A stretch of 36,433 nt of DNA from Patescibacteria group bacterium (GTDB taxonomy: Bacteria; Patescibacteriota; Patescibacteriia; 2-12-FULL-60-25): positions 1 through 36,433 of the forward strand of contig JARGGJ010000015.1 in assembly GCA_029210915.1 (NCBI GenBank), given 5' to 3'. Position 1 is the stretch's first letter, and the number at the start of each line of letters is the position of its first letter. A model generated the notes under the pieces. The model was given only the letters and a program-made list of their open reading frames with translations, had not been told where the DNA came from and searched no databases. Below are positions 9,438 to 21,803 of the stretch, piece after piece. Position numbers and translations under genes: made by a program.

Positions 9438-9512
9438 GGCCTGTTCGTCTAACGGTTAGGACGTCGCCTTCTCAAGGCGAAAATAGGGGTTCGATTCCCC
9501 TACGGGCTACCA
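9438..9512 (+). tRNA. tRNA-Glu (anticodon CTC), CCA encoded
   Basis: A full cloverleaf can be drawn: acceptor GGCCTGT with ACGGGCT (9502-9508), D arm GTCT...GGAC, anticodon stem TCGCC/GGCGA with loop TTCTCAA (anticodon CTC), and T arm AGGGG-TTCGATT-CCCCT. The discriminator is A9509 and CCA is encoded at 9510-9512. The first acceptor pair is G1-U72, a wobble that is unusual for this tRNA. Repeats and a GIY-YIG gene follow directly. Confidence 0.92.
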
Positions 9513-9574: not shown

Positions 9575-9704
9575 AGCGCTAGGAGCGAAGGTGAGGCGAG
9601 CTCAGCTCGCCCTACTAAGCGCTAAAGCTTTGGGAAGCTCAGCTTCCTTTAATTAGCAAGAGCTGGTTTCGGTGGTAATAATCAGGTGAAAGCCTGGTTG
9701 TTTT
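9575..9704. repeat. 130-bp direct repeat, copy 1
   Basis: Identical by eye to 9724-9853 (offset 149 bases). It contains two palindromes (GGCGAGCTCAGCTCGCC and GGAAGCTCAGCTTCC), an AGCGCT at each flank of the first, and ends with a hairpin AATCAGG/CCTGGTT (9680-9699) followed by GTTTTTTT, which looks like a terminator. Confidence 0.9.
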
Positions 9705-9707
9705 TTT
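9680..9707 (+). terminator. Terminator-like hairpin in direct repeat copy 1
   Basis: AATCAGG (9680-9686) pairs with CCTGGTT (9693-9699), followed by seven T (9701-9707). It could end the tRNA-Glu transcript. Confidence 0.65.
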
Positions 9708-9723
9708 CTGCTCAGACTATATG

Positions 9724-9853
9724 AGCGCTAGGAGCGAAGGTGAGGCGAGCTCAGCTCGCCCTACTAAGCGCTAAAGCTTTGGGAAGCTCAGCTTCCTTTA
9801 ATTAGCAAGAGCTGGTTTCGGTGGTAATAATCAGGTGAAAGCCTGGTTGTTTT
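9724..9853. repeat. 130-bp direct repeat, copy 2
   Basis: Identical to copy 1. The same hairpin ends here with only four T, then A, so its terminator function may be weaker. The 19 bases separating the copies are unrelated to the repeat. Confidence 0.9.
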
Positions 9854-9888
9854 ATTTCCGTAAAATCATTCCGAGCTCAGCTCGCTTT

Positions 9889-9905: not shown

Positions 9906-10178
9906 ATGTATTACGTTTATGTTTTAATAAGTTTGAAGGATCGGAAATTGTATGTTGGGTTTACATCAGATATTAATCGACGTCTTTCGGAACACTTGGA
10001 TGGGAAATCAAAATCTACTAAAGATCGCAGACCTCTAAAGTTAATTTATTATGAATCGTACTTAGAAGAATATGAAGCTAAAAGGAGAGAGATTTATCTT
10101 AAAGGTGGTAACGGCAGATCTCAACTAAAAGTGCAATTGAATGTTACATTGAGGAAATGCGGATATAGGTTTAGATGA
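9906..10178 (+). CDS. Small GIY-YIG nuclease-domain protein
   Basis: A 90-residue single-domain protein of the UvrC/homing-type GIY-YIG fold (UPF0213/YhbQ-like group). YYVYVL (residues 2-7) takes the GIY position, KLYVGFTSD (14-22) the YIG position, followed by INRRLSEH with the catalytic-type arginine, and EAKRREIYLKGGNGR with a likely metal-binding glutamate. Such proteins are predicted to cut DNA; the small CPR forms have no known role. An in-frame start at 9888 would begin before the -10, so ATG 9906 is used. The C-terminus (LNVTLRKCGYRFR) looks diverged. It lies after tRNA-Glu and is a distant paralogue of the GIY-YIG gene at 21480, also beside a tRNA. Confidence 0.85.
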   Translation: MYYVYVLISLKDRKLYVGFTSDINRRLSEHLDGKSKSTKDRRPLKLIYYESYLEEYEAKRREIYLKGGNGRSQLKVQLNVTLRKCGYRFR

Positions 10179-21400: not shown

Positions 21401-21470
21401 AGGGACGTCGTATAATGGTAGTACAGGGGTCTCCATCCCTCCTTTCGCGAAAGGAGGGATCCAAAACCTC
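21401..21470 (+). pseudogene. Truncated tRNA-Trp copy with palindromic insertion at the anticodon
   Basis: Bases 21401-21435 repeat exactly the first 35 bases of the intact tRNA-Trp (21730-21764): the acceptor 5' strand, D arm and half of the anticodon arm through CCA. A 24-bp perfect palindrome (21436-21459) follows, then TCCA again and AAACCTC (21464-21470), the rest of the anticodon stem. Removing the palindrome and one TCCA restores the intact tRNA sequence. After 21470 the similarity fades (AGC, then unrelated), so the T arm and 3' acceptor strand are missing. It cannot be a working tRNA. Confidence 0.85.
21436..21459. mobile_element. 24-bp perfect palindrome with 4-bp target duplication
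   Basis: The first half is TCCCTCCTTTCG and the second half is its exact reverse complement. It is flanked by TCCA on both sides (21432-21435 and 21460-21463), whereas the intact tRNA-Trp has TCCA once at this place. This looks like insertion of a tiny palindromic element with target duplication. Confidence 0.7.
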
Positions 21471-21479
21471 AGCTTATAT

Positions 21480-21731
21480 ATGCATCATGTATACGTTTTA
21501 CAAAGTGATAAAAATAAGAGTTTATATATTGGCATGACATCTGATCTTAACAGACGATTAGGTGAACATAATTCAGGAAAGGTTTATTTTACTAGCAGGC
21601 ATTATCCTTATAAGCTATTGTATTATGAAACTTATCAAACCAGAGTTTTAGCTGAAGAACGTGAGAAACAGCTCAAAAAATTCGGTTCGGCATATTACGC
21701 ACTTATCAAAAGGATAAAAGTTAACATATAG
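21480..21731 (+). CDS. Small GIY-YIG nuclease-domain protein between the tRNA-Trp copies
   Basis: An 83-residue single-domain protein. HVYVL (residues 3-7) takes the GIY position and SLYIGMTSD (14-22) the YIG position, followed by LNRRLGEHNSG with the catalytic-type arginine, YPYKLLYYE and LAEEREKQLKKFG with a likely metal-binding glutamate. The frame is open upstream through the tRNA copy and the palindrome, but the family's usual start is ATG 21480. The stop TAG is at 21729-21731 and overlaps the first two bases of tRNA-Trp. It belongs to the same family as the gene at 9906, and its placement inside a duplicated tRNA suggests it could mediate the integration. No dedicated promoter is obvious; the tRNA copy upstream contains TATAAT (21411-21416). 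Confidence 0.88.
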   Translation: MHHVYVLQSDKNKSLYIGMTSDLNRRLGEHNSGKVYFTSRHYPYKLLYYETYQTRVLAEEREKQLKKFGSAYYALIKRIKVNI

Positions 21732-21803
21732 GGACGTCGTATAATGGTAGTACAGGGGTCTCCAAAACCTCTAGCGCGGGTTCGATTCCTGCCGTCCCTG
21801 CCA
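21730..21803 (+). tRNA. tRNA-Trp (anticodon CCA), CCA end encoded
   Basis: Acceptor AGGGACG pairs fully with CGTCCCT (21793-21799). The D arm is GTA...TAC, the anticodon stem is GGGGT/ACCTC with loop CTCCAAA (anticodon CCA), and the T arm is GCGGG-TTCGATT-CCTGC with one G-U pair. The discriminator is G21800, as expected for bacterial tRNA-Trp, and CCA follows at 21801-21803. The 35 bases at its 5' end are repeated 329 bases upstream. Confidence 0.95.

Follow-up and report, generated by a model that had tools for sequence, protein, structure and literature searches.

The tRNA-Trp locus in the window

In the window, by which we mean the whole 36,433-nt stretch of DNA that was analysed, the sole tRNA-Trp among the tRNA genes found in the genome is preceded by a small GIY-YIG nuclease gene and, upstream of that gene, by a partial copy of the same tRNA. 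The features are as follows, where class A denotes a subfamily described below.

9438–9512, plus strand: tRNA-Glu(CTC), upstream of the second GIY-YIG gene
9906–10178, plus strand: second class A GIY-YIG gene, 90 aa, downstream of tRNA-Glu on the same strand
21401–21435, plus strand: partial tRNA-Trp copy, tRNA positions 1–35, an exact direct repeat of 21730–21764
21436–21459, no strand: 24-nt perfect palindrome (TCCCTCCTTTCG/CGAAAGGAGGGA) inserted in the anticodon loop of the copy
21460–21470, plus strand: tRNA-Trp copy resumes, tRNA positions 32–42 (L005 1481–1491)
21480–21731, plus strand: class A GIY-YIG nuclease gene, 83 aa (PF01541 match, E = 4e-15)
21730–21803, plus strand: intact tRNA-Trp(CCA), overlapping the GIY-YIG stop codon
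21815–21831, plus strand: terminator-like stem-loop 3′ of tRNA-Trp (consensus match only)

The original prediction placed the first 35 bases of tRNA-Trp twice in direct orientation around an 83-residue GIY-YIG gene whose stop overlaps two tRNA bases, and the exact repeat and the ORF coordinates agree with it. The TAG stop (21729–21731) shares two bases with the start of tRNA-Trp, giving a gap of −2 nt, and the 35-nt repeat has E = 2e-16 in a comparison within 3.2 kb. The copy was also said to continue past the palindrome, and it does resume there, ending at tRNA position 42 rather than at about position 43. The palindrome is bounded by a repeated TCCA (21432–21435 and 21460–21463), and a nearly identical palindrome occupies the same place in the Uhrbacteria locus L040. 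We rejected the idea that hairpins are merely common in the genome, as a scan of the window (arm of at least 9 bp, loop of at most 8) gave ten hairpins, and the only GC-rich perfect palindrome among them is the one at 21436–21459.

An assembly error at this locus is unlikely because the layout is repeated in many unrelated genomes. A group I or II intron carrying an endonuclease was rejected, as there was no Rfam match to a catalytic intron RNA in the window or the other loci scanned, and tRNA-Trp itself has no intron. Between the repeats there is no integrase, the GIY-YIG ORF being the only content of the unit. Compared with the tRNA-Trp genes of four congeners (L014–L017), the tRNA at 21730–21803 has a compensatory change in the acceptor stem and a difference at position 25, and the remnant has the same 5′ states as its own tRNA-Trp.

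GIY-YIG genes in the same genome

The genome has 12 PF01541 matches, one of which, in a 440-aa open frame, is UvrC-like. All 11 of the non-UvrC genes lie less than 400 bp from a tRNA, and all ten class A genes are within 400 bp of one and on its strand. Five GIY-YIG genes immediately precede a same-strand tRNA (Trp, Arg-gcg, Ser-cga, Ser-gct and Ser-tga), five lie downstream of a same-strand tRNA (His, Glu, Pro, Asn and Leu), and one, at tRNA-Met, is divergent. Each of the five upstream genes is preceded by a partial copy of its own tRNA, made of identical blocks with one to three inserts; GIY-YIG genes of the same class beside 5′ fragments of other tRNAs, for which the original prediction had proposed a search, are thus present. 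The GIY-YIG copy at tRNA-Pro contains a TAG and is a pseudogene. In the interval from tRNA-Glu to the second GIY-YIG gene of the window, 9576–9860 holds two near-identical blocks of ~130 bp that are rich in short palindromes (gagctcagctcg, ggaagctcagcttcc).

Remnants with hairpins also occur without a class A gene, at Lys, Arg-ccg, Thr, Phe, Met and Ala (loci L122, L143, L136, L128, L134 and L149), and in the Arg-ccg and Thr remnants the anticodon arm is swapped for GTCCGATGNNCATCGGAC. We read these remnants as probable scars of lost units. A class C GIY-YIG gene lies further upstream of the Met remnant.

Linkage of GIY-YIG classes to RNA genes

GIY-YIG proteins were sorted into classes A, B and C with three seed profiles, by protein sequence alone and with the own-genome copies among the class A seeds. 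Class A is the subfamily of the window gene, class B proteins have about 92–102 aa, and class C resembles UPF0213. Class A genes lie less than 400 bp from a tRNA in 10/10 cases in the own genome, in 15/17 in a family census made with a generic Pfam model (its loci coming mostly from the best-scoring matches), in 43/67 in a GTDB sample and in 26/53 in a second sample, a count that leaves out the repeated own locus; the percentages for the two wide samples are not free of bias, as the profiles used to retrieve those samples derived largely from tRNA-linked members. Pooling the four samples, 94 of the 147 class A genes are by a tRNA, and all 94 are on the tRNA strand. By our own arithmetic for 45 tRNAs in 1 Mb, about 5% would be expected within 400 bp of a tRNA by chance. 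Not every GIY-YIG gene follows tRNAs: class B genes do so in 0/47 cases overall (0/24 in the family census), and class C genes, mostly elsewhere, in 9/25, of which 4 are on the same strand (7/22 and 3 in the family census).

tRNA genes are common integration sites, and tRNA loci might passively collect any small gene as hot spots of recombination. We regard such trapping as extremely improbable, since it predicts neither the absence of the similar-sized class B genes from tRNAs nor the mostly unlinked class C genes, and neither a single orientation nor stop codons within a few bases of the tRNA would be expected. Viral carriage was also rejected, as no relative was found in viral contigs and the 11 distant phage matches, mostly from Rhizobium phages, are at 37–39% identity.

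The targets are not tRNAs only, as had been supposed. According to Rfam, 13 more class A genes lie at other RNA genes, all on the strand of the RNA gene: downstream of tmRNA (L064, L072, L073, L069, L080, L090, L265, L270 and L281), at the 5′ boundary of RNase P RNA (L253 and L255), inside 16S (L067) and inside 23S (L211). This brings the RNA-gene-linked total to 107/147. Another 39/147 have no recognised RNA gene adjoining, some of them being at contig ends, and the unlinked genes inspected in the second sample lacked both flanking repeats and any noteworthy tRNA-like sequence. One of the 39, L052, belongs to a tandem pair behind tRNA-Leu as its second unit. At that locus, in a Bacteroidetes MAG (L052 2443–3345), an intact tRNA-Leu is followed by two tandem units, each consisting of a GIY-YIG gene and a hairpin-filled 3′ copy of tRNA-Leu.

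Anatomy of the tRNA remnants

To find remnants, we chained exact matches between the tRNA and the far side of the GIY-YIG gene and used other tRNAs as the null. The first set comprised 68 tRNA-linked units, 35 upstream and 33 downstream of their tRNA. A colinear 5′ remnant of the own tRNA was found in 22/35 upstream units and a 3′ remnant in 7/33 downstream units (both above the 99th percentile of the null), leaving 13/35 and 26/33, respectively, with no remnant above threshold. With both sets combined, nucleotides 1–7 of the tRNA are found upstream of the ORF in 30/49 upstream units versus 1.7% in the null. In the upstream class the order is the original promoter side, a partial 5′ tRNA copy, the nuclease ORF and then the intact tRNA joined to the original 3′ flank, with the first bases of the intact tRNA touching or nearly touching the stop codon; the stop-to-tRNA distance is between −37 and +16 nt in 28/35 units. 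The downstream class is its mirror, with the intact tRNA followed by the ORF and a 3′ tRNA fragment, a layout that the original prediction had not included.

That the unit duplicates part of its tRNA target holds to the extent that partial copies of the own tRNA recur; the extent of the copy is not fixed, since remnants end anywhere from about tRNA position 36 to full length. Because these breakpoints vary, no single cut site is visible, and the layout is not that of integrase-style site-specific insertion; a fixed attachment site of an integrase-type element was rejected on the same ground. A different route to such repeats would be nicking of the tRNA gene at two offset positions and placement of the ORF between the filled-in ends, which would leave direct repeats of 20–120 bp with no homologous copying. 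Repeats that extend past the tRNA into its 5′ or 3′ flank fit this (118 bp at 98% in L066, 78 bp at 100% in L062, 67 bp in L182 and 48 bp in L200). We nevertheless consider it unlikely, as the lengths and ends of the repeats are widely variable, the unit encodes no transposase, integrase or reverse transcriptase, and at several loci (L041, L065 and L088) there are remnants on both sides of the unit.

The longest uninterrupted block shared by remnant and tRNA has a median of 30 nt, with hairpins in between. When compared with their own shuffles, 34/40 remnant inserts of at least 12 nt are hairpins, versus 12% of control segments. The inserts sit in the D-arm, the anticodon loop or the T-loop, or they stand in place of the anticodon arm (L182 27/45, L203 26/44 and L209 27/43). 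The palindrome in the tRNA-Trp copy is thus not incidental and belongs to hairpin insertions at tRNA loops that recur in remnants.

The class A protein

Residues Y5, G18, R26, H30, E62 and K66 are invariant in 50 relatives of the 83-aa protein, and pN/pS is 0.07–0.28 in the closest pairs, values that indicate that the class A protein is under purifying selection. An AlphaFold2 model of the 83-aa protein (mean pLDDT 93.6) is a single compact GIY-YIG domain, and a separate DNA-binding domain, which is usual though not universal in homing endonucleases, is absent from it. The nearest solved folds are UPF0213 1zg2 (by sequence and E-value) and the nuclease domain of Slx1 (TM-score 0.72), with I-TevI at 0.51. 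Slx1 is a structure-specific nuclease that works with Slx4 in eukaryotes. Because the modelled fold is Slx1-like and Slx1 is structure-specific, folded DNA is plausible as a substrate.

Occupied and empty sites

The flanks of tRNA-Trp are not syntenic among relatives and thus provide no strict empty site at this tRNA, so we compared tRNA-Arg(tct) instead. tRNA-Trp has no unit in G007, and in G001 there are only 13 nt of tRNA and a hairpin upstream of it. At tRNA-Arg(tct), the unit is present in one species (G024) and missing from three congeners (G025, G026 and G027), so that a tRNA locus with and without the unit, as the original prediction had called for, is found among relatives. G024 has a promoter-like string, a remnant (positions 1–62) with three hairpins, the GIY-YIG gene and the intact tRNA. 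The empty loci of G025 and G026 have the same tRNA-His neighbour and promoter-like string as G024, and the empty locus of G027 has a downstream gene in common with G024 (61% identical). The comparison of occupied with empty loci shows what becomes of the original gene: its 5′ part remains as the remnant, and an intact tRNA is rebuilt after the ORF.

Class A proteins that are 84–91% identical occur at different targets, including tmRNA and tRNA-Ala in one genome (L281/L282), Arg downstream and Lys upstream (L056/L076), and a pair of tRNA-Ser genes separated by 1 kb (L295). A tree of 68 nuclease sequences, which rests on 86 columns and has many unresolved forks, needs 33 changes of target isotype, compared with 46.7 in shuffles (0/200 as low), so that its clades follow the isotype more closely than shuffling would give; a supported clade joins units from several host lineages, seven at Trp and one at Cys. 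From the occupied and empty sites and the similar proteins at different targets, we infer that the unit is mobile. The original reading of a very small mobile unit therefore stands as regards a tRNA-tied unit that leaves an intact tRNA and a partial 5′ copy, with its mobility deduced from these comparisons rather than observed directly.

Could the gene instead be a resident housekeeping factor of tRNA operons, acting in tRNA-gene stability or tRNA processing, with the remnants as accidental tandem duplications? Purifying selection, the constant strand in every linked case and the presence of class A genes in 83/143 sampled genomes would suit such a host gene. However, the number of class A copies varies from none to at least 11 per genome, sites differ among congeners, copies lie inside 16S and 23S rRNA genes, remnants match the neighbouring tRNA and similar proteins sit at unrelated RNA genes, and we therefore think a host function quite improbable.

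Relation to known homing systems and a proposed mechanism

SegB of T-even phages is a free-standing GIY-YIG homing endonuclease that, in the part of the account available to us, cuts within tRNA genes and drives duplication of the tRNA-segB unit by recombination (PMC13096335). In T4 (NC_000866), the segB stop precedes tRNA-Arg by 5 nt, with both on one strand, so both here and in T4 a GIY-YIG gene outside an intron is directly upstream of a same-strand tRNA, with a gap of −2 nt in the window versus 5 nt in T4. RAWTSGAAC, the motif given for SegB in that part of the account (PMC13096335), is the reverse complement of GTTCSAWTY and fits the tRNA T-loop; it is present in 55/94 of our target tRNAs, absent from 39/94, and kept in 2/9 of the remnants that span it. 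SegB differs in length (221 aa vs 83), and the 32% identity extends over only 34 residues. With 34 of its 221 residues aligned, the two proteins lack full-length similarity and SegB was rejected as an orthologue. Also, SegB acts on a phage tRNA array rather than on single chromosomal tRNA genes, and the available part of the account reports no hairpins.

In fungal mitochondria, e.g., Pyronema confluens, an intact gene is followed by an endonuclease gene and a truncated copy of the target, an arrangement read, in the portion of the paper at hand, as a partial duplication linked to homing (PMC4866847). This is the same layout as that of our downstream class. The mitochondrial case differs in that its targets are protein-coding organelle genes, and that portion of the paper reports no hairpin-filled remnants of RNA genes. 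An earlier report on the same bacterial group, as far as its accessible text goes, describes GIY-YIG ORFs in non-intron insertions of rRNA genes, with most insertions of all kinds at the top or the base of a stem-loop. L067 and L211 resemble these insertions. The report mentions tRNA 0 times, places GIY-YIG outside spread by homing and, in that text, describes no partial target copies. In the open literature (subscription papers and preprints being outside the scope), we came across no account of bacterial tRNA genes that combine a GIY-YIG gene with a partial tRNA copy. The pattern points to a widespread and apparently undescribed kind of selfish element on the essential RNA genes of Patescibacteria.

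Our best explanation, which we hold to be fairly probable, is a minimal free-standing homing-endonuclease-like element, in which one 83-residue GIY-YIG gene occupies a tRNA gene, splits RNA genes and leaves one intact copy. In keeping with a free-standing homing element, the catalytic residues are conserved, the gene lies outside any intron or intein, and orthologous sites are both occupied and empty. We propose that the nuclease is transcribed as part of the RNA-gene unit, as suggested by its constant strand and the lack of a gap. It would then cut RNA-gene DNA, perhaps structure-specifically given its Slx1-like fold, and repair of the break would copy the unit into the cut gene; by likeness to SegB and the fungal mitochondrial endonuclease genes, the element would spread by cutting and recombinational repair. 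The host would survive because an intact tRNA is rebuilt. Later, the left-over fragment would gain hairpins at loop positions, which would split it into short blocks such that the unit is not easily deleted by recombination, and the hairpins may also destroy the cutting site in the remnant. A point against this explanation is that the intact tRNA adjoining the gene should remain a target, and thus self-cleavage must somehow be avoided. The variable breakpoints, the compact protein that lacks a DNA-binding domain of its own, the class A genes away from any recognised RNA gene and the units with no remnant above threshold also count against it.

If the homing-endonuclease-like explanation holds, selfish genes reside within the most essential RNA genes of many Patescibacteria, whose tRNA remnants record past insertions and losses. 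Homing with partial duplication would then not be confined to phage tRNA arrays and the protein genes of organelles but would also affect the genes for tRNA, tmRNA, RNase P RNA and rRNA in bacteria. In annotation, a small GIY-YIG ORF that adjoins a tRNA should then be taken as probably an element and not a repair gene.

Hairpins near GIY-YIG genes

Within 100 bp of the gene, the density of hairpins is 2.5 per kb for class A and 5.3 per kb for class B, compared with about 0.3–0.5 per kb further out. The same comparison gave no enrichment near class C, whose UPF0213-like genes are also mostly away from tRNAs, unlike class A. At the threshold used, 39/94 class A genes (about 40%) have a hairpin within 200 bp. 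Repeats such as ATTCCTGC...GCAGGAAT flank class B genes. There are 7 genome sites with the palindrome GTCCGATGNNCATCGGAC, every one of them within a tRNA remnant or a short way downstream of a tRNA, and in L221 this palindrome swaps the tip of another hairpin. At the T-loop, hairpin pairs accompanied by a duplicated CG are seen repeatedly in hosts that are unrelated (L062, L198, L262 and L277).

Dispersed hairpins are also known from Rickettsia palindromic elements and from REP-RAYT systems, in which the hairpins have a dedicated nuclease nearby and the RAYTs are Y1 transposases. The concentration of hairpins by class A and B genes resembles REP-RAYT; the nuclease differs, being GIY-YIG, and no Y1 transposase is encoded inside the unit. 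By analogy, our nucleases could belong with dispersed hairpin repeats as RAYTs do with REPs, the hairpins being the main mobile units that enter or replace stem-loop tips, and the tRNA copies and gene being by-products or an autonomous form. The enrichment specific to classes A and B, the inserts that enter tRNA loops or exchange the anticodon arm, the tRNA-bound sites and tip swap of GTCCGATGNNCATCGGAC, and the recurrent T-loop double hairpins all argue for such a two-part system. We still judge it rather unlikely, since many hairpins in the genome have no GIY-YIG gene nearby, fewer than half of the class A genes have a hairpin close by, and movement of hairpins by the nuclease is a conjecture.

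Beyond the free-standing homing-endonuclease-like element that we favour, the hairpin part may be something further. It is possible, and we suggest this tentatively, that a mobile system made up of hairpin modules and small Slx1-like GIY-YIG nucleases acts on DNA folded like its RNA product. Such a system would cut DNA in cloverleaf or hairpin form where structured RNA genes lie, and would insert or exchange hairpins at stem-loop tips; class A would be specialised for the genes of tRNA, tmRNA, RNase P RNA and rRNA, and class B for dispersed hairpin repeats. If right, hairpin repeats would gain a candidate partner, where REP-RAYT systems alone have an identified mover.

Hairpins were also observed in other settings. 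Among the own-genome tRNAs (L001–L013, L120–L149 and L220–L222), 34/41 have a possible hairpin behind them, its 5′ arm beginning at the 3′ tail of the tRNA or extending into it (shuffled mean 5.7). These hairpins are often CCACGTAAAAAGCCGC...GCGGCTTTTTACGTG, and their tips are exchanged between tRNAs (L221 vs L002). Seven downstream-class units (L047, L063, L069, L080, L082, L054 and L056) have in common an 80–90-nt two-hairpin leader from the tRNA 3′ end to the ORF, with arms GCAACGT...ACGTTGC and GGGACGT...ACGTCCC, the first arm following the tRNA tail, GCAA or GCCA. Class B genes in Flavobacteriaceae and Patescibacteria (L095, L107, L115, L188, L210 and L212) lie among direct repeats and hairpins of the ATTCCTGC...GCAGGAAT type, some of them in tandem arrays that include the gene. 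In L214 (1480–1540), two copies of CCCGGTCATCCGACCGG end an intergenic RNA-like stretch that has no Rfam match.
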